In this document: positions 6,158-48,048 of the stretch, one piece after another | How positions within the stretch are numbered: the stretch's first letter is position 1 | Layout of the letters: each line of letters begins with the position of its first letter | DNA from: Jaapia argillacea MUCL 33604 | Taxonomy: Eukaryota; Basidiomycota; Agaricomycetes; Jaapiales; Jaapiaceae | DNA length: 64,000 bases | Assembly (NCBI GenBank): GCA_000697665.1 | Contig: KL197709.1 | Coordinates: forward strand, 134,000 to 197,999 | Direction: 5' to 3' | Program-made: the position numbers and the translations under genes | Notes under the pieces: generated by a model | What the model saw: the letters and a program-made list of their open reading frames with translations, nothing else | Database searches by the model: none | What the model was told of the DNA's origin: nothing

Positions 6158-6348
6158 AGGGTAGACGTGGGGAGCGAAGTTGGCACACTTGGGCTAGCTT
6201 GAACCGTGACATCGACCACCGTCGTCCCGCCGAGTCTGACTCGACCTCGCAGCCGCAGCCGCTGTATCAGGACGAGGAATTGTTATCTGCTTCAGCAGCT
6301 CAGCCCTACAGGAGTTACCGACGCATTACTATCCAGTCGACCTGAACT

Positions 6349-7679
6349 ATGGAAGTAAATGGCGAGAGGCTGATAGCCTCCCAGCACGTCGAGCTCGAAG
6401 TAAGTCGAGTCAATCAATCATCCGCCGCTTACAGGCATGACCGACCGCCTACACTATCCAGGAATCCTCAACAAATTCTATTCCTAACGAGTTGTTACTG
6501 GTCATTTTCGAATTCGTGGTAGCCGAACCCTCGACGAAGAACGACTTTCATATCCCCATACGTCTATCGCAAGTCTCCACCCATTGGCGCACATTGGCCC
6601 TTCACAATCCGTCCTTATGGACCAACGTTCACCTAAACCTCTCTTATCAGACCACATTCTTCCTGGCCTCTCGTTTCCTCGACAGATCCAACCTTCTCCC
6701 CGTACACATCATAATCACAGCTACCGTCCCTTTCGATCGTCTTCTGGTCGAACGGAGCATCAGCTTTGTCCGTGATCAATTACCTCGATGCCGTTCCCTT
6801 ACCATATCTTCTCCTTATGTGGGCTATATCACTCGTCTAACTACCCTCGTCTCCTTCCCCGCGCCGAAATTGCAGAACCTCGAGATCGATTACTGCAGTG
6901 GTCACGAGCGCGTTCAGTTTCTTCGAATCGATTACGCCAATGGCATGAGTCCTCCTCCTCTCAGACGAGTCCGGTTAACTGCAGTCGTATTACCTTGGGA
7001 AGGCCCGTCGCTCTCCAATCTGACCACGTTCGAGATTGGTGGTCTTGGGAAGCAAGCTTATACTGTGTCTCAACTCCGCTGCTTCTTCGCCAATAACCCT
7101 TGCTTGGACACGCTCATCATAGGATCGCAACTCCTGGCAGCAGAAGACGTTCACCCGAAAGTCGAAATCCCCTCCCTCCGCTCCCTCAAACTCACCCGAT
7201 GCACCCGTTACGAAACCCCCATCCAGTTCGCCATCAGCCTTTCTACACCTGGTCTCACCTCACTCGTCATTATCAACGACCCGCGCCAGCCCGGCGACGG
7301 TGGGTGGTCAGGTTTCGTCAACTACGTCAAAGGGTGTACCATTCCCTGCTATCCATCCTTGGCATCTCTTATCCTCCGCGGTGTACCCGTATCCATGATT
7401 GATGCGGAATTCACGAAATCGTCACCGGCTCTAACCGACCTGGTCTTGCTAGGCGACAACCTCTCCTTCGATTTCCTTCTCCCTCCGCGGGTTGGTGGAG
7501 GAGACAGAGGCGAAGAACCGAAAGGATGTCCGTGGCCCAAATTAGAAAATCTCCGGTGCGAAGGGAGATCGTTGACTCATCATTTGCGAGAGGTTTTGGA
7601 ATTTCGAAGGACGCTGGGCTTCCCTGTATCGAGTGTCGCTGAAATCTCTCCCGGCGAACTACTGCATTCCGGAGCTTAG
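6349..7679 (+). CDS. F-box-like domain protein
   Basis: A probable substrate-recognition subunit for an SCF-type ubiquitin ligase (inference from the F-box). A short first exon (6349-6399) encodes MEVNGERLIASQHVELE. An intron at 6400-6461 (GTAAGT...CAG) follows, and exon 2 begins with the F-box: SIPNELLLVIFEFVV, then SQVSTHWRTLALHNPSLW. The remainder is a leucine-rich, repeat-like C-terminal half with periodic LxxLxL strands (PSLRSLKLTRC, PSLASLILRG), as is usual in the large Agaricomycete F-box family. It is about 425 residues long and appears intact. It is divergent from the metallophosphoesterase, sharing a 191-bp promoter interval. The short first exon is inferred from a matching frame and good splice sites, not from transcripts. 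Confidence 0.8.
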
Positions 7680-12279: not shown

Positions 12280-13998
12280 TCATGGCAGATACATGATAGA
12301 CCACCCGCTAGAATCGTGCGTGACAAGCAATTCAAGACCACCCTCAATGCAACTATTGAGCCGTACCGAGATGAGGTCACCAACCCATTCAGTTTCAGCC
12401 CTCGAAAAAGCCTCCAAGAATATAAACTCTGCGCGAAGTAGTCGCATCGGAAAGTCAACGGTGGACGCCGACGACGCGTTGCCCGTATCCCCAAAGGGCA
12501 AAGCATCGCGTCGTAAATAGATCCAAGCGAGCATCGTGTCCAAATCTCGCTCAGAATAGCTTTCCAGAACAAACGTGGCTTGCTGTAATCGAGGCAGGGA
12601 CAATGAATGTTGATATTGAAGGGACGAGGGGTGGTGGGATATCATATCGAAGAATGTCCTATCTTTGTGGCGAGTTGGCCGGTCCAAGAAGAATTGAAGG
12701 TGTGTGACAGTCGATAGGTGAGATAGACCCTCTATCCAACCCACTTTCACGTTCAATTCCAGGGTCTCAAGACGGCACGAAGACCTCTCAATACATCCCG
12801 CAAGAGCCCTGATCGATTTGATCATCCCCTTTCCCGAAGAGTCCTTTGGGAAATATCGAAGGTCGACCAAAGACGGAACCACGAGATGTTCCAACAACAA
12901 TCTATCACCAAACGTCCCAAAAATCCTGAGGAAAGTAAGTTTCGGTAGTCTGATTGGTGCCACGATTTGCTCGGACTCCAATCGGGGACGAGTGCGGCAG
13001 CCTATCCAACAATGAGTGAGCTCCACACATTGCCTGAGCACATCAAAGCAACTATTCAGGGCGAATGTGTCCTGGCGTTCGTCGGGGTTGCCCAGGTGGA
13101 GGTGCGTCAGTTGTGACCACGGTAAGGCTATCAGAGCTGGCCTGGTCTGATGGAGGAGAGCGACGGTCCGAAGGCGAGGTGCTCGGAACGATTGGAGATC
13201 GGCAGATTTTTCTAGCTCATCGGCGATGATGAGAGTTTCCAAGAGGACGGGATCCCTCTCGACCATTGCATGGAGGAGTGGTACGACGCCGTGGATGCTA
13301 TCACCCCAGTTTGTGAGGCGGACTTCTTTCAGTCGGTGGACGTGGGGGCAAAGAGCGGCGAATATCGGGCCTGCATTAAATATGGATACGGCGAGGGAGA
13401 TCGTCAAGGGAGACTCGCCGGATCGGGAGAGTAAGACGGCCAGAGCTGATGCCCAGAAATTCCTGAAATAATTTAGGGACTCCCTCGTCGCCTCCTCAGA
13501 ATCCGGGAGATCGCACTCTGCTTGGAACGACGACCAAATGGTCGGGTTTTGGAGCGCAACTTCTCTCCAATGCCAACACACTTCCAGGATTGGATCGCGA
13601 ATGTCGAGTGGGTGTTTGTAGTGGAGATCAATGTCGTGGAATATTTGAGCGAGAATTTCTGGGGGTAATCGACGGATGGGTGAGAGGAGAGAATTGATGA
13701 GGTCCAACCGCGTTCGAGTGTCTTCCAGTTCTCGAGCCAGAGAGTCTATCTGGTCTTTTGCTAGAGCAGCAATCCCCGTGCCTTGCTGTAGCGCAGCAAT
13801 TCGAGCTGGGAGGAGGACGATTTCATCCTCAAGATGAGCGACCTCGTGGACTAGGTCGACTCTACTAGGAACCGACAAGTTAGAGCGGGATGCCTGAAGA
13901 AATGACGCGGTGGAAAGGAATTTGGAAGGGGCATCTTCGTCACGGATGAATATGTGGCGAAGGGTTGATTCGTGAGGCGGCAGCTCACCTAGAGTCAT
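12280..13998 (-). CDS. F-box-like protein with N-terminal coiled coil
   Basis: A typical Agaricomycete F-box-like protein of about 572 residues in one coding exon. Residues about 50-95 (EVAHLEDEIVLLPARIAALQ, then LARELEDTRTRLDLINSLL) form a coiled coil. It is followed directly by the F-box: SPIRRLPPEILAQIFHDID and DPILEVCWHWREVALQNPTIW. The C-terminal 400 residues show irregular leucine-rich strands. The start at 13998 (MTLGELPPHE) is preferred over the in-frame ATG at 14085. A TATA-like box at 14188-14197, a donor (CTCAG|GTAAGT, about 14125) and an acceptor (CCTTCCAG, about 14014) suggest a spliced 5' leader that removes the upstream ATG. The role as an SCF adaptor is inferred from the domain. 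It is intact and convergent with SOD2. Confidence 0.85.
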   Translation of the reverse strand: MTLGELPPHESTLRHIFIRDEDAPSKFLSTASFLQASRSNLSVPSRVDLVHEVAHLEDEIVLLPARIAALQQGTGIAALAKDQIDSLARELEDTRTRLDLINSLLSPIRRLPPEILAQIFHDIDLHYKHPLDIRDPILEVCWHWREVALQNPTIWSSFQAECDLPDSEEATRESLNYFRNFWASALAVLLSRSGESPLTISLAVSIFNAGPIFAALCPHVHRLKEVRLTNWGDSIHGVVPLLHAMVERDPVLLETLIIADELEKSADLQSFRAPRLRTVALLHQTRPALIALPWSQLTHLHLGNPDERQDTFALNSCFDVLRQCVELTHCWIGCRTRPRLESEQIVAPIRLPKLTFLRIFGTFGDRLLLEHLVVPSLVDLRYFPKDSSGKGMIKSIRALAGCIERSSCRLETLELNVKVGWIEGLSHLSTVTHLQFFLDRPTRHKDRTFFDMISHHPSSLQYQHSLSLPRLQQATFVLESYSERDLDTMLAWIYLRRDALPFGDTGNASSASTVDFPMRLLRAEFIFLEAFSRAETEWVGDLISVRLNSCIEGGLELLVTHDSSGWSIMYLP

Positions 13999-14187
13999 GA
14001 TGATAGCGAGAGGCCTGGAAGGTATAATTCCAGAGTTGGATAGTAGAGCACGCAAGTGAACTAGTAGTATGGTGGGTGTTTTCAATCAACTAGGACGTGT
14101 ACGAGGGAAAGTTATAGACTTACCTGAGAGTATCGAAAGCTGAGTTCGTCCAGGGGATTCAAACTTCCATGTAGTTTTGGGTTGTTC

Positions 14188-15382: not shown

Positions 15383-15642
15383 TGGTTACCCTGCCGGGCC
15401 CGTGTTGGAAGACAGTAGATTGTTATCTTTGTTTGGAGGGAGAGATGGCCCAAAGTCGAAGCATGTCTGTGGCAGACTGACCTGAGAGCTCTTTGCCAGT
15501 CGAGAAGTGCGACACGTGTGACATGGATTGAGTTCCTGCCTCAGGACATCCGATAGTCAACGATCCAGTTGGTGTATCCTGGTATGCCGCTTTTGCCCTC
15601 GGACCGTTGTAGAAGGGGGCACAACCTGATGGTATTCGCATT

Positions 15643-16344
15643 ATTGTTGTTTGCATAAATCGTGAGAATCTCAGTTTCCGCGAGAGAAACGCGAACGGGA
15701 AATTGGTCGCAAGAATCACTTCTCGAACCCTCACTACGCTGCTTACTTCTACTTTCCATACTGTGTTCGACTCGTAAAATATGCCCGAACCACCATGCGA
15801 AGCAATGGCAGCAAACGGACTCGCCAAACTCGACTTGTCAATTCTCCCAAACCTCGACAATTAGCATCATAGCGGCTGCTTCTCCGACCACTCACGACTT
15901 GCAGGGGCCTTCATATTGGACTTGTGTCGCACCATGCACCCTCGAGATCTTTTGTCGCCGCGATTTCTGGAGTGTGGGTTCTTGTGGATGTGGGGGCGGA
16001 ATTGTGGCGCGAGTTTCTCCATTGCATTAGATGTTCCTTGTGTGAGCGATTTACCACGTACTCATACTGACCGTATGATGGTGATGAAGCCTGATTTGAC
16101 CAGGCTGCAGAGTTGTATTCTGAGATATGGAGGGCGGAGAGTTGAGGATTGAACCATCCCATGCGGTTCCCGCCACGGTTCAACCTTGGAGTAGGGTATA
16201 GGGGCTATTTTACTGAGTGGAATACAAGTCGAATTGTGTCTATACCTTGGCTTGTACAGTCTCTGCAAACATGTCTTCCGCCGAATTTCTGCGCCGCCTT
16301 TCTTTTGCGGAAACTGAGATTCTCACGATTTATGCAAACAACAA
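15643..16344. repeat. Perfect 39-bp inverted repeat with 624-bp spacer
   Basis: The arm at 15643-15681 (ATTGTTGTTTGCATAAATCG...) is exactly reverse-complementary to 16306-16344. Similarity continues weakly for about 20 bp inside each arm. Both arms, read toward the 5' side of the left arm and the 3' side of the right arm, translate to the same peptide (AETEILTIYANNN). They therefore look like fragments of two oppositely oriented copies of one gene family rather than transposon ends. The spacer holds no intact gene. Confidence 0.7.
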
Positions 16345-16439
16345 TAGATGGCTATGTCAGCGCGTGGAACTTCGACGTTCCGAAGATTGATCACAGCTGT
16401 GTTGTGATCATAACCGTATGAGTCTCTGAACTCCCATTG

Positions 16440-16529
16440 TCCGATATGGTGTAACGGCTAACATTGCCGCCTTTCATGGGGATATCCCATTGATCGCGGC
16501 AGCTCGGGGTTCGATTCCCCGTATCGGAG
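16440..16529 (+). tRNA. tRNA-Glu (anticodon TTC) with 18-nt intron
   Basis: The acceptor stem TCCGATA pairs with TATCGGA (G discriminator). The A-box region TGGTGTAACGGCTAAC and B-box GGTTCGATTCC are present. The anticodon stem GCCGC/GCGGC encloses the loop CTTTCA, with TTC at positions 34-36. The extra 18 nt lie after position 37, the canonical nuclear tRNA intron site. The intron contains the palindrome GGGATATCCC. A second copy lies in opposite orientation at 18668-18757. Confidence 0.92.
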
Positions 16530-16805: not shown

Positions 16806-18555
16806 ATGCTCTCAACACGCACAACAATCCTCCGTACATCGCTCAGCCGCGCCCGACTGCTGCACACGTCACCCACCCTCTTCGCCTCCAACACATCCGG
16901 CGGCCAAGACGCGTCCATCTCTCAAGGTCACACAACCTCCCCCTCCAACAAATCTCCTCGAGACCCCCAATCACAATCCGCTTCATCCGGTATCAATCAA
17001 CGCGCATCTTCATCAGACTCTTACTCTCTTGACGCTTCCTCGTCGGAACCCTCCCAGCACCAGAAACATACTCCGAAAGGCGGGAACCCCGAAGGCGTAG
17101 GTTTCACCGACCAAGTCGGTAGTCAATCTGCTTCGTCACCTGGTTCAGGCACAGTAGGGGAACATGGGAAGAAAGGAGAGGAAGAAGCTTCCGCTCCCGG
17201 GTTCGTAGCAAGCGTGAAGCAAGCCTTGGGTGTAGGAACGAGCGCCGGAGAGGTTAAGCAGAACAGATGTGGTGGGGAAGGAGTGACTGGTACCGGTACT
17301 GGTCCGAGACAAGCTGGGAACAGAAAATTCCACACGAGCGCGTTCGTCAGTGAAGCAGGTAATGGAGCTGGAGCAGGAGGGGTCCCTGATGCAGCTAGAC
17401 AGCCGAAAGAGCCGACCTATGGAGAGCAGAACGAGCATTTGAGGCATAAGAAGAACGCTGGTGAGGAGCCAGAGCTGCCTTCTCGTCGGTCGAAGAGTGG
17501 TGGAGAGGAAGTCGATAGGATAACCAATCCAGCAGGAGGCAAGACCCAACGTCGTTCCTTCTCGACTACTTCTTCCTCGAATTCGAAAACCACGAAGCAC
17601 ACGACAGATTCGTATATGAAGGATGCGGATACGACTCCCCCACCCGATAAGACCACGCATACAGTCGCCGATTTGCATGGTGAAGGTAGCCAGGTCCAGA
17701 AAGCTTCCGAGCCCGAACCTGCCACAGGTGGATGGACGCCTCTCGCCAACTCCATTTTACCCGATACCAACTCGACTCAAGGCTCCATCCCAGAAAAGTC
17801 ACAACAAAAACGAGGTTTCGTAACCTCTGCGATCTCGTCGTCGAGACGTGGATTCTTCACCTCTGCGGCTCCGTTCCAAGCGAAACATTCGGCGGAGAGT
17901 TATTTCAAGGACGTAGATTCTTCGCCTCCGCCTGATCAGAAGACGCATACTGTTGCTGATGCTGATACGGAGGGAGGGGCGCAGGTGCAGAGAGCTAGTG
18001 AGGCTGCTAGTGGGGAGTGGAGTCGTGCTGGGGTTGGTGAGGGAGAGGACGGGAAGGATGTGGGAGGGTATGAGAGGTGAGCCATTTCATTTTATCGCGG
18101 ATTGACGGGAAGATTGGCCATTTGGAGCGATGGTCTGGCGAGGACCTTGTTCATGTTTGTGTTGGCGACGAAGCTGTTGGATGTGATCGTGTTTCGGTAC
18201 GGAGATGTACTCCCTATGGCTCGATTGGTTCGGTTGAGGTGCTTAGATGTGGGCGAATCGATTTCGTTCTTTGGACACGCTCCACCCCGTTATTCCCATA
18301 ATTTTCTCGACCAACCATCTCTTCCACTTCGACTCTAACCGATGTCCATCCAGCGTGAGCAAAACCGAGCCCTACTCAGCTTCGACTCCATCATCGCAAG
18401 AAGGTCAATCTGATTTGAGGTATGGTGGGAAGGAGAAGTGGAATGAGGATGAGGGGAAGGGGAAAGGTGGGGTTAGTGGCAGAGGGGAGGGGCCTCATGG
18501 GGGTAGTCGAGGTGGGAGGGGACCTGAGGGGAAGAGGAATAGAGAGGGGATGTAA
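16806..18555 (+). CDS. Orphan repeat protein with mitochondrial leader and internal leader-like motifs
   Basis: I do not recognise a known family. Exon 1 runs 16806-18076, intron 18077-18353 (GTGAGC...CCAG), exon 2 18354-18555, giving about 490 residues. The N-terminus (MLSTRTTILRTSLSRARLLH TSP) is Arg/Ser/Thr-rich and acid-free, like a mitochondrial presequence. The body is low-complexity, Ser/Gly/Glu-rich and hydrophilic. A roughly 35-residue unit occurs twice, with consensus SYxKDxDxxPPPDxxTHTVAD followed by EGxQVQxASE. Short motifs like the first cleavage site recur along the chain: RKFHTSAF, RRSFSTTSS, KRGFVTSA and RRGFFTSAAPF. The C-terminal exon has DLRYGGKEKW and a Gly/Arg/Lys-rich tail. 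No upstream in-frame ATG exists in this exon. It sits between the two inverted tRNA-Glu genes. Without exon 2 the protein would end at 18080. Confidence 0.7.
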
Positions 18556-18667: not shown

Positions 18668-18757
18668 CTCCGATACGGGGAATCGAACCCCGAGCTGCCG
18701 CGACCATTGGGATATCCCCATGAAAGGCGGCAATGTTAGCCGTTACACCATATCGGA
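18668..18757 (-). tRNA. tRNA-Glu (anticodon TTC) with 18-nt intron, second copy
   Basis: The exonic sequence is identical to that of the plus-strand copy at 16440-16529. The 18-nt intron at the same site differs at two or three positions near its 3' end (CCCAATGGTC versus CCCATTGATC) and keeps the GGGATATCCC palindrome. The two genes form a 2.3-kb inverted pair around the mitochondrial-leader repeat protein. Confidence 0.92.
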
Positions 18758-23098: not shown

Positions 23099-24589
23099 CT
23101 ACCACGGATAGGCATCGTCAAATGATTCATCCGAATAGTAGTCCATATCCACTTCCTCAAATGGTCCATCTCCATCTGGCTTTGCAATATTCCTCTTCAT
23201 CAACCCCTCAGGTTCAGGGAAATTCGCAAGAAGCTGCACATGCATTCCAATTTCCCAGCAAAATCCTCCGCCTTCCAACTCTAATAACTGGGCAGTTCGA
23301 TCCGTCAGAGCGAGATGGGTTATAGGGCGCCCACAAGATCGGAGTCCGGTCATGACTTTGGAAAGAACCTCTTTTGTCACGTCGCCGTCGAGCGTGAGAC
23401 TAGTCAGGGACGGCCAGAGGGCGCCCCCCTCTGCCGGCTGTGAATTCTGAGTAGTGTCGGATGAATGTAGCAACGACGCTGTTCGCAGGAATGACTGGAA
23501 CAAAGCTGGGATGAAACTCCTGCCCGGAGTTGTGGTATCCAGTAACTGGAGGATAGGATCTACGTCGACTTCGATGAGGGTTAAAGTTTCCAGCTTGGGG
23601 AAACCCTTCATGAAGTATGGCTCGATAACTGTGGTATCGATGCGAGAGAGGGTCAAGCTCCTGAGGACCGGGTACCGTGGATTGTCAACCTTCAATGAAT
23701 TCACAAACTCCAACCAACCCGAATCTCCGTCGTCATTCAATCGGAATGAAAAAGGTTGCTCCTCATCTCTCATCACCAGGGTCTCCAACGCAGGTGTCGC
23801 GAAACAAGCTGCCTGGCGAAGAACCTGATGCATCCCAGTCGACTCGATCAACTCCAAACTCCTGAGAGATGGAATATCGATGAGGGGGTTTGGATTGTCG
23901 TAATCCAACAAGATCGACGAGTGGAGGATAAGATGTCGTAGGGTGGTCAAGGACGCAAAGAATGGGCGGATTTCATACGCATGTTTGGTCATGAAGAAGT
24001 ATACCCTCCCAACCTCGAGCGTGTGTAAGCCACAGACAAGAGGCGACGGAGTCTTCCAAAACGGAGTGACCTGGTTGAGCTTGAGATGGAGCGAAGGGGT
24101 GCGCCCATCGAGGAAGTTCGGAAGGTACCCCGTATTTTGCATATGGTCGAGGTTGACAATCTCGACTAGCTGTAGGCGAGGAGCCCTCGTGGCTTTATCA
24201 ATGCCTCCAAGGACGGTGTGTAGGTCGTCAAAGACCCGGACGGTAATCGACAGCGTGGCGCAACGCTCAATTCTGGAAACGACAAATTCGGTGATGAAGG
24301 GTATCTGGTGACTTCCCGACTTTTGCACGTCGAGAACGAACTCCAGGGGGATCGTGCCACACCTCTCTATCTGAAGCAATGCCAGATTGTGAGAAGAAGT
24401 GAGGGGGGCACGTAGGTGGATTGTCTTCCAAAGGACGGGACTCTCAATGCTGACTCTTCGCCAGCGCCGAGAGACATGAGAGCTCCGAAGAGCAAAGGTA
24501 TAATCCTTTTCACCAACACCTTCTTTCTGACCCAAACTAATGAGCGCACGAAGGACCTTGTCCGGTAGGGAATCGAAGTTAGCGGGCAT
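23099..24589 (-). CDS. F-box-like domain protein
   Basis: A 496-residue, single-exon protein. The N-terminus holds the F-box: FDSLPDKVLRALISLGQKEG, then SSHVSRRWRRVSIESPVLWK. The rest is leucine-rich with regular strand-like segments (PSLRSLELIEST, PVLRSLTLSRIDT, PKLETLTLIEVDV, PSLTSLTLDGDV) and an acidic C-terminus (EEVDMDYYSDES). It is probably a substrate adaptor of an SCF ubiquitin ligase (inference). There is no frame damage, in contrast to the two broken relatives on its left. Compared with the 6.3-kb F-box protein the layout is the same (F-box first, no coiled coil), so these two belong to one subfamily. Its start lies just left of a segment that is duplicated at 28.1 kb. Confidence 0.85.
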   Translation of the reverse strand: MPANFDSLPDKVLRALISLGQKEGVGEKDYTFALRSSHVSRRWRRVSIESPVLWKTIHLRAPLTSSHNLALLQIERCGTIPLEFVLDVQKSGSHQIPFITEFVVSRIERCATLSITVRVFDDLHTVLGGIDKATRAPRLQLVEIVNLDHMQNTGYLPNFLDGRTPSLHLKLNQVTPFWKTPSPLVCGLHTLEVGRVYFFMTKHAYEIRPFFASLTTLRHLILHSSILLDYDNPNPLIDIPSLRSLELIESTGMHQVLRQAACFATPALETLVMRDEEQPFSFRLNDDGDSGWLEFVNSLKVDNPRYPVLRSLTLSRIDTTVIEPYFMKGFPKLETLTLIEVDVDPILQLLDTTTPGRSFIPALFQSFLRTASLLHSSDTTQNSQPAEGGALWPSLTSLTLDGDVTKEVLSKVMTGLRSCGRPITHLALTDRTAQLLELEGGGFCWEIGMHVQLLANFPEPEGLMKRNIAKPDGDGPFEEVDMDYYSDESFDDAYPW

Positions 24590-46773: not shown

Positions 46774-48048
46774 ATGGTCAGCCCCATTGGTACCTTACCA
46801 CATGAGTTGTTGGCGGATGTCTTCGACCTGGTGTCGAGCGAGTCGGCTGGACAGCGTTTATATCCCAACCTCCCTCTCTCTCATGTGTCGCGTCGTTGGC
46901 GCACCGTCGCTCTCGCCACGAGCTCATTGTGGACCGAAATCGAGATCTCATTGTCATCTCCGCCATCTTGGTCGCTCGCAGAAGAATTCCTAGTTCGGTC
47001 GCATCCACTTCCGATCAATCTCTGCGTCAGCAGTCTGCACGAGGATGTTTGCGCTGAGATTGGGGATGCAGTTGATACCTTCAAGCGTTGCATGGATCGT
47101 TGCGTAACATTATCGATTTTCTTCAATAACACGGAGTGGGTTGACGCTCTCACGTCGCTCTTCTTCCCTGTGGCACCCTCACCCAAGCTCCATTCCCTCG
47201 ACATCCGGTTTAGACATCAGTTCCTGCCAGAATCAGAGCATCTCGAAAAGCCTCTTATCCTACGAGATGCCCCAGCGTTGAGGACTTTGCGGCTGGATGC
47301 CGTCATGCTTGACCTGGGGTTGGCATCGCTGAAGGCATACTCCTCGATCACAACCCTCGACATCGGACGTATGACACTTTGGTCTCATACCGCGGTGCAG
47401 GAAATGTTTCACGCCATCCCGTCATTGGAGGACCTCCGCCTTCGATCCCACCTCCTACCACTCGGGCATCTTATAGACTGCCCGCCCATCCTTATCCCCT
47501 CCCTGCGTCGTCTTGTTCTCGACTGCTATCGAGACGACCCATGTCCCCTCGCAGCACACCTTTCCCTCCCAGCTCTCGAAGCACTCACCATCTCCGCTAA
47601 TACATCAGGCCCCATCACCAACCCCAGATGGACAATTGTGTTCGGTTCAACCCCGGAGTCACCTCGTTTCCCAAAACTTACCTCTCTCACATTGGAGGGA
47701 CTTGATTTCCAGCGGATGAGAGTTGGGGTTAGCAGCGCATGCCCTGCTCTCAAGCACCTGGTCGTTGAAGGCGCGAATCTCCTTCCTGTGACCTTCTTGT
47801 TGAGGCCACCTCAGGGTTCCTCTGTGGTGTCACCAAGGCCAGGTTCGAACTGGCCAGCGCTCGAAACCGTGAGATTGGGTGGTGCAGTGGAATCGACTGT
47901 CGTGTGGTGGGTGCTCTCGCACCGCGAGGCCTTCGGCAAACCCCTCTCCAAAATGTATGTCAAATCAATTTGTGGTGGGATGCTGGGTAGAGACCAGACG
48001 GAATGGTTACGCGGGAGAAAGGAACTCTCCTTCGGTTCTATGAGCTGA
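46774..48048 (+). CDS. F-box-like domain protein
   Basis: A single exon encoding 424 residues. The F-box is at the N-terminus: SPIGTLPHELLADVFDLVSS, then LPLSHVSRRWRTVALATSSL with WTEIEIS. Leucine-rich segments follow (PALRTLRLDAVMLDLGL, PSLEDLRLRSHLLPLGH, PSLRRLVLDCYRDD, PALEALTISANT, PKLTSLTLEGLDF). It has the same HVSRRWR-type box and overall plan as the genes at 6.3 and 23.1 kb. No defect was seen, with a stop at 48046-48048. The role as an SCF adaptor is inferred from the box only. Confidence 0.87.
   Translation: MVSPIGTLPHELLADVFDLVSSESAGQRLYPNLPLSHVSRRWRTVALATSSLWTEIEISLSSPPSWSLAEEFLVRSHPLPINLCVSSLHEDVCAEIGDAVDTFKRCMDRCVTLSIFFNNTEWVDALTSLFFPVAPSPKLHSLDIRFRHQFLPESEHLEKPLILRDAPALRTLRLDAVMLDLGLASLKAYSSITTLDIGRMTLWSHTAVQEMFHAIPSLEDLRLRSHLLPLGHLIDCPPILIPSLRRLVLDCYRDDPCPLAAHLSLPALEALTISANTSGPITNPRWTIVFGSTPESPRFPKLTSLTLEGLDFQRMRVGVSSACPALKHLVVEGANLLPVTFLLRPPQGSSVVSPRPGSNWPALETVRLGGAVESTVVWWVLSHREAFGKPLSKMYVKSICGGMLGRDQTEWLRGRKELSFGSMS

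Follow-up and report, generated by a model that had tools for sequence, protein, structure and literature searches.

The plastid polyproteins of Euglena consist of repeated mature units joined by decapeptides, the units being folded photosynthetic proteins. For mitochondria, excerpts of two papers (PMC8847149, PMC10450427) describe the fungal Arg5,6 precursor, in which acetylglutamate kinase and reductase lie in tandem and are separated by an internal cut of the mitochondrial processing peptidase (MPP). Sections of PMC10450427 add SDHB-RPS14 of rice, a nuclear polyprotein reported to be cut by MPP, and sections of PMC8847149 name Atp25 and Rsm22-Cox11 as composite candidates. The same sections of PMC10450427 deal with engineered polyproteins: when the 10-residue sequence RGGGRRAFHT (S10) linked GFP to RFP in E. 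coli, yeast MPP cut the construct to completion; in yeast mitochondria the signal was strongest with S10 in double copy; FHT or FST is cited as the most efficient set of P1'-P3' residues; and cutting was inefficient in the shortest test peptides when lysine replaced arginine at -3. A search of the open-licence literature returned no report of a natural MPP polyprotein that is repeated and cut many times.

Here we describe a predicted two-exon nuclear gene of 490 residues from the fungus Jaapia argillacea (Table 1) that carries a mitochondrial-type leader and four internal copies of a leader-end-like motif. It lies in a 64,000-nucleotide stretch of DNA (the window, G000:C1:134000-197999) of a genome that was searched as 43.7 Mb in 95 contigs (G000). 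By eye, its introns and a number of F-box-type frames are those of a fungus, probably of a basidiomycete. Alternative splice pairs are possible, one of which yields a longer frame; the pair used here was chosen because the junction YE↓SVSK aligns with YGTVSR of an intronless paralogue.

Table 1. Features of the gene in window coordinates. Arrows mark predicted cleavage points.
Feature	Position	Strand	Basis
Whole gene, ATG to TAA, 490 aa spliced	16806..18555	+	paralogue backs frame and splice
Exon 1	16806..18076	+	predicted
Intron, 277 nt, GTGAGC...CTAAC...CATCCAG, CTAAC close to 3' end	18077..18353	+	splice signals and unbroken frame of paralogue
Exon 2, C-terminal tail with LRYGG, common to paralogue	18354..18555	+	tail alignment
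Mitochondrial-type leader MLSTRTTILRTSLSRARL↓LHTSPTLF, MPP-like R-L↓L then Oct1-type octapeptide	16806..16883	+	sequence
N-terminal domain core GGQDxSISQGH...NPEGxGFxxQVGS, common to paralogue	16899..17123	+	alignment
Putative internal site 1, RK↓FHTS	17322..17339	+	
Putative internal site 2, RRS↓FSTT	17550..17570	+	
Repeat unit 1, residues 248-311	17547..17738	+	
Putative internal site 3, KRG↓FVTSAISSS, copy 1 of 36-nt tandem	17808..17843	+	
Putative internal site 4, RRG↓FFTSAAPFQ, copy 2 of 36-nt tandem, heads unit 2	17844..17879	+	
Repeat unit 2, residues 346-406	17841..18023	+	

The first 26 residues contain four arginines and no aspartate or glutamate, with a best moment of 0.47; by sequence the N-terminus has the features of a mitochondrial presequence, and import would be expected. 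The preliminary description had pointed to such a leader and to four later motifs resembling its end. Both observations hold: the leader ends in RLLHTS, and this end (R17) and the four later motifs, all in frame (R173 RKFHTS, R250 RSFSTT, R336 RGFVTS and R348 RGFFTS), fit one looser pattern, R-x-[FL]-x-[TS]-[TS], giving five sites in all, four of them internal. That each motif opens a new section stands for three sections, not four, because sites 3 and 4 are only 12 residues apart.

The recurrence of the motif is well above chance. Between residues 31 and 490 RxFxT occurs four times against a mean of 0.04 in shuffled sequences, and a count of four did not arise in any of 20,000 shuffles. As background we took 635 six-frame ORFs of at least 100 residues (103,242 aa, many of them not genes) from the window and 20 other stretches, leaving out the frames that hold exon 1 and the paralogue. 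These ORFs contain RxFxT 12 times and [RK]RxFxT once, so that 0.057 and 0.005 occurrences are expected per 490 residues where four and three are seen; RxFxT is thus some 70 times commoner in the gene than in this partly non-genic set. A further pattern, R-x-[FY]-x-T-S, occurs four times in 217 ORFs of at least 150 residues: three times in the gene and once in the paralogue. These three patterns were drawn after the gene had been seen. At the level of DNA, a pattern approximating RRxFxT[ST] (which admits some serine codons) was not enriched genome-wide (337+349 matches versus 461+474 for the reversed pattern).

The R-10 motif of substrates of Oct1 (MIP) is R-x-[FLI]-x-x-[GST]-x4, a looser pattern that we took as it stands and did not fit to the gene. 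It fits all five sites, and its four internal occurrences compare with a shuffle mean of 0.44, a count of four being reached by 18 of 20,000 shuffles, which is less striking than the result for RxFxT. The pattern is also common (2.8 per 1000 aa in the 217 ORFs), and one other ORF, of 387 aa, likewise has four. Arginine at -10 of Oct1 substrates is given in sections of PMC8847149.

At least one leader-like end of this type occurs elsewhere in the genome. A 90-aa frame (L016, start at 6176, reverse strand) begins MASMCLRLAFRRSFSTSPACLSG, and its leader, MASMCLRLAFR-RSFSTS, shares its type of end with the internal sites. Among the 19 leader-like starts listed, one is the gene itself, several are one locus repeated, and about two others look real by eye. 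F-x-T ends are not universal in the genome, since the GroEL leader, whose end seems to be VRGAHKEIKF, lacks F-x-T; a genome search for citrate synthase as a control identified no leader. These leaders bear on the idea that RxFxT is a short binding motif of a disordered protein, recognised by a matrix chaperone or a membrane, and that its likeness to a leader is a coincidence of composition. The position of RxFxT, at the same place before both repeat units, would suit a binding motif; however, the gene's own leader ends in the same form, as does the leader-like start in L016, and we regard this explanation as very improbable.

How well the internal motifs would serve as MPP sites can be judged from the portions of PMC10450427 that report S10. 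The RRx↓FxT core of S10 is present in site 2 (RRS↓FST) and in site 4 (RRG↓FFT). Site 1 (RQAGNRK↓FHT) shares with S10 FHT, an arginine at -2 and a distal arginine at -7, but has asparagine at -3. Site 3 (KRG↓FVT), with lysine at -3, is the weakest match, but it stands 12 residues before site 4. As putative sites, then, 2 and 4 match the published short MPP site closely, site 1 partly and site 3 least. The stretches ahead of them appear to be poor presequences: the flanks contain 3-8 glycine or proline residues, where the leader has 1, and 1-3 acidic residues, where it has none, and although moments of 0.28-0.51 are found, they occur in these glycine- and proline-rich, partly acidic stretches. 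Poor helix potential before the internal sites is nonetheless a weaker objection than it might seem, because a short site of the S10 type works without a full presequence.

Two of the sections carry the same unit. The preliminary description put it at 35 residues; the sharing is real, but the units extend over 61-64 residues including an RRxFxT head, and SYxKDxDxxPPPDxxTHTVAD is a 21-residue core inside both. Units 1 and 2 are 53% identical, a level of likeness reached by none of 1000 shuffles. Over 60 aligned codons synonymous sites are saturated (pS 0.80), so the duplication is old, while pN is 0.32: amino-acid change between the units is restrained. Identity is unevenly kept, with four of six residues in the head, none of seven in the linker that follows, 17 of 26 in the core and 11 of 20 in the tail; when six-residue stretches of the protein were paired at random, 94 of 100,000 pairs reached four identities. 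Of the kept head residues, one arginine (CGT/AGA) and the threonine (ACT/ACC) are encoded differently in the two units; the other arginine (CGT) and the phenylalanine (TTC) each have one codon in both. Because four of its six residues are kept against none in the adjoining linker, the head looks to be under selection.

That duplication took place is certain: a unit was copied together with its leader-end head, and the head alone was duplicated as a 36-nt tandem, giving sites 3 and 4. Such copying could by itself have produced the internal motifs. The protein would then be a single, uncut, disordered mitochondrial protein in which internal leader ends remain from the copying of a unit that bore a leader, and are tolerated owing to the disorder of the chain and its richness in serine and glycine. 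The visible duplications that take in the motif, the predicted disorder and composition of the chain (below) and the poor presequence character of the internal flanks are all as this explanation would have it. Passive copying alone, however, does not easily explain old copies in which the head has outlasted the linker, its residues lasting at saturated synonymous divergence, and since two sites have the core of a sequence reported to be cut by MPP, a failure to be cut would itself need explaining. We consider an uncut protein somewhat unlikely, though it is the strongest competitor of the polyprotein reading. The two readings offered at the outset, an MPP polyprotein and a duplication that copied the leader end, each apply in part, the duplication with certainty; the accompanying statement that neither is described for any family went too far, internal cutting by MPP being known for Arg5,6 and SDHB-RPS14.

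The paralogue (G000:C1:121349-122338, 330 aa) lies 28 kb away on the opposite strand. Near its start it has leader-like ends RLLRTS and RRLHTS, followed by a GGQDxSISQGH...NPEGxGFxxQVG domain, a single internal KRTYATS and an LRYGG tail, and it has no unit; because it keeps one internal site and no unit, the number of units varies within the genome. Over residues 1-111 the two proteins are 48% identical (0 of 1000 shuffles as high; dN 0.51 and dS 2.2 over 110 codons of the N-terminal domain), and the tails align with a score of 55, equalled by one shuffle in 1000. In the middle, which holds its internal site, the paralogue is not significantly like the gene (305 of 1000 shuffles as high), although uncorrected BLASTP extends one alignment through it; for the whole C-terminal part 18 of 300 shuffles were as high. 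Depending on the alignment, the internal site of the paralogue falls opposite site 1 or site 3.

This arrangement of N-terminal domain, one internal site and LRYGG tail would also be expected if two precursors had been fused, as in Arg5,6, the one giving the N-terminal domain and the other the C-terminal unit and LRYGG, with one or two cuts and a later duplication of the unit that had no proteolytic importance; the natural MPP-cut examples described in the excerpts cited above are likewise two-part. By the published preferences, however, sites 2 and 4 are no worse than site 1, so that a single cut is not what would be predicted, and we think a fusion of this kind unlikely, more so than an uncut protein.

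The genome was searched for relatives of the exon-1 protein, of the paralogue and of the unit; this returned the one paralogue and no further unit. Two weaker rows were dropped as relatives: one (L005, E 0.05) is the opposite strand of the paralogue itself, and the frame of the other (L008, E 0.25) resembles by eye an ABC-type transporter. The exon-1 protein gave four pattern matches in viral contigs, and an alignment of the units gave 70 in bacterial and archaeal genomes, with no confirmed relative in either. Pfam, NCBIfam and PDB sequences yielded no family match, a DUF4680 match of the paralogue being set aside at E = 1, and short peptide strings of the protein had no match in the paper text of the open-licence literature.

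The chain is predicted to be disordered, by charge-hydropathy and, for exon 1, by structure prediction from the single sequence without alignment (mean pLDDT 42.6, no residue at or above 70); a folded structure is thus not expected to hide the sites. The precursor contains 14.5% serine and 14.1% glycine with a GRAVY of -1.07, and after the leader the values are 14.9% glycine and -1.14. The usual cut-offs for hydrophilins are more than 6% glycine and a mean hydropathy below -1. The precursor lies within both, as do the four predicted fragments (hydropathy -1.01 to -1.56, glycine 7.7-19.5%) and 2 of 41 other ORFs of at least 250 aa; the paralogue precursor falls short on hydropathy (-0.95) and comes within it from residue 33 (-1.02). 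High glycine and high hydrophilicity are the features given for hydrophilins in parts of PMC4190154. Hydrophilins and dehydrin-like proteins are thus similar to the gene product in being glycine-rich and very hydrophilic; the gene product has no Pfam family match.

The leading reading, whose chances we put at close to even, is that the gene encodes a matrix-targeted precursor acting as a natural MPP polyprotein, its import, cutting, trimming and function being read from the sequence. The N-terminal leader would bring the chain into the mitochondrion, and MPP would take the leader off at R-L↓L. The same peptidase would cut at the R-x↓F-x-T sites inside the chain, following residues 174 and 251 and, at a double site, residues 337 and 349; an Oct1-type peptidase may trim eight residues from each new end. 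The predicted products are an N-terminal protein of ~148 residues, a linker of ~69, unit 1 of ~78, and unit 2 with the tail, ~133. Each of them would be a disordered, hydrophilic protein rich in glycine, and this points to a hydrophilin-like protection of the matrix, although such a role, taken from composition alone, is only a guess. In favour of the reading are the five sites of one type, the retained head residues, the internal site of the paralogue, the likeness to S10, the predicted disorder, the candidate processing enzymes of the host and the L016 frame; against it are the residues at -3 of sites 1 and 3, the poor presequences before the internal sites, the unlike middle of the paralogue, the DNA pattern that is not enriched and the GroEL leader. 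In its fullest form, with up to four internal cuts (two of them in the tandem double site) that free several hydrophilic, disordered proteins (the two repeats among them), and with sites that evolved by copying a presequence end along with the unit, the proposal is tentative and its chances are distinctly below even.

Such a polyprotein would share with those of Euglena the presence of repeated, organelle-imported units in one precursor, and would differ in organelle, in linker and in lacking folded photosynthetic products. Like Arg5,6 it would be a nuclear-encoded fungal precursor with an N-terminal presequence and an MPP-type site inside the chain; unlike Arg5,6, which yields two enzymes, it has four internal sites, at which cutting is predicted, and its products would probably be disordered and partly repeated. 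SDHB-RPS14 is also a nuclear precursor cut by MPP (reported in rice, predicted here), but it is a plant protein that joins two unrelated proteins without repeats. The engineered polyproteins (S9/S10), as described in part of PMC10450427, likewise place short RRx↓FHT-type sites between their pieces, also in double copy, but they are designed and not natural. Since internal cutting by MPP is already known for a few two-part precursors, the novelty would lie in the small, repeated products. If the polyprotein reading is true, the ends of presequences serve as cutting sites that can spread and be reused, mitochondria obtain small proteins from polyproteins much as engineers now do by design, and 'mature' mitochondrial proteins predicted from a single N-terminal cut may be wrong.

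Candidate processing enzymes were sought in the same genome. An MPP-beta/core-1 homologue is present on contig C3 (324135-324548), with YALI0A14806p as its top PDB match, followed by many entries named MPP-beta and then by bc1 core-1 proteins. A second M16 locus (C2:1089987-1090482), a relative of insulin-degrading enzyme and several M3-family peptidase genes were also found; the last are Oct1 candidates, none of them proven, and the search identified neither MPP-alpha nor Oct1 with certainty.

Some features of the surroundings deserve mention in their own right. Inverted tRNA-Glu (TTC) genes, 98% complementary over 91 nt, flank the gene (window 16440-16529, forward strand; 18668-18757, reverse strand); ARAGORN (bacterial code) found no other tRNA in the window. 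An element of 0.7 kb (window ~15641-16350), bounded by inverted ends of 73 nt, resembles a non-autonomous DNA transposon, although no clear target-site duplication was seen at this copy. At least four copies exist, the others (G000:C1:124354-125029, C8:1362373-1363085 and C18:637062-637769) being 86-91% identical to that in the window; two of the copies lie upstream of the gene (~0.46 kb) and of the paralogue (~2 kb). F-box/leucine-rich-repeat-like frames, recognised by eye (window 6492-7679, 12280-14085, 23099-24589 and 46774-48048; L002:2498-3490), appear to have expanded locally and also adjoin the paralogue.
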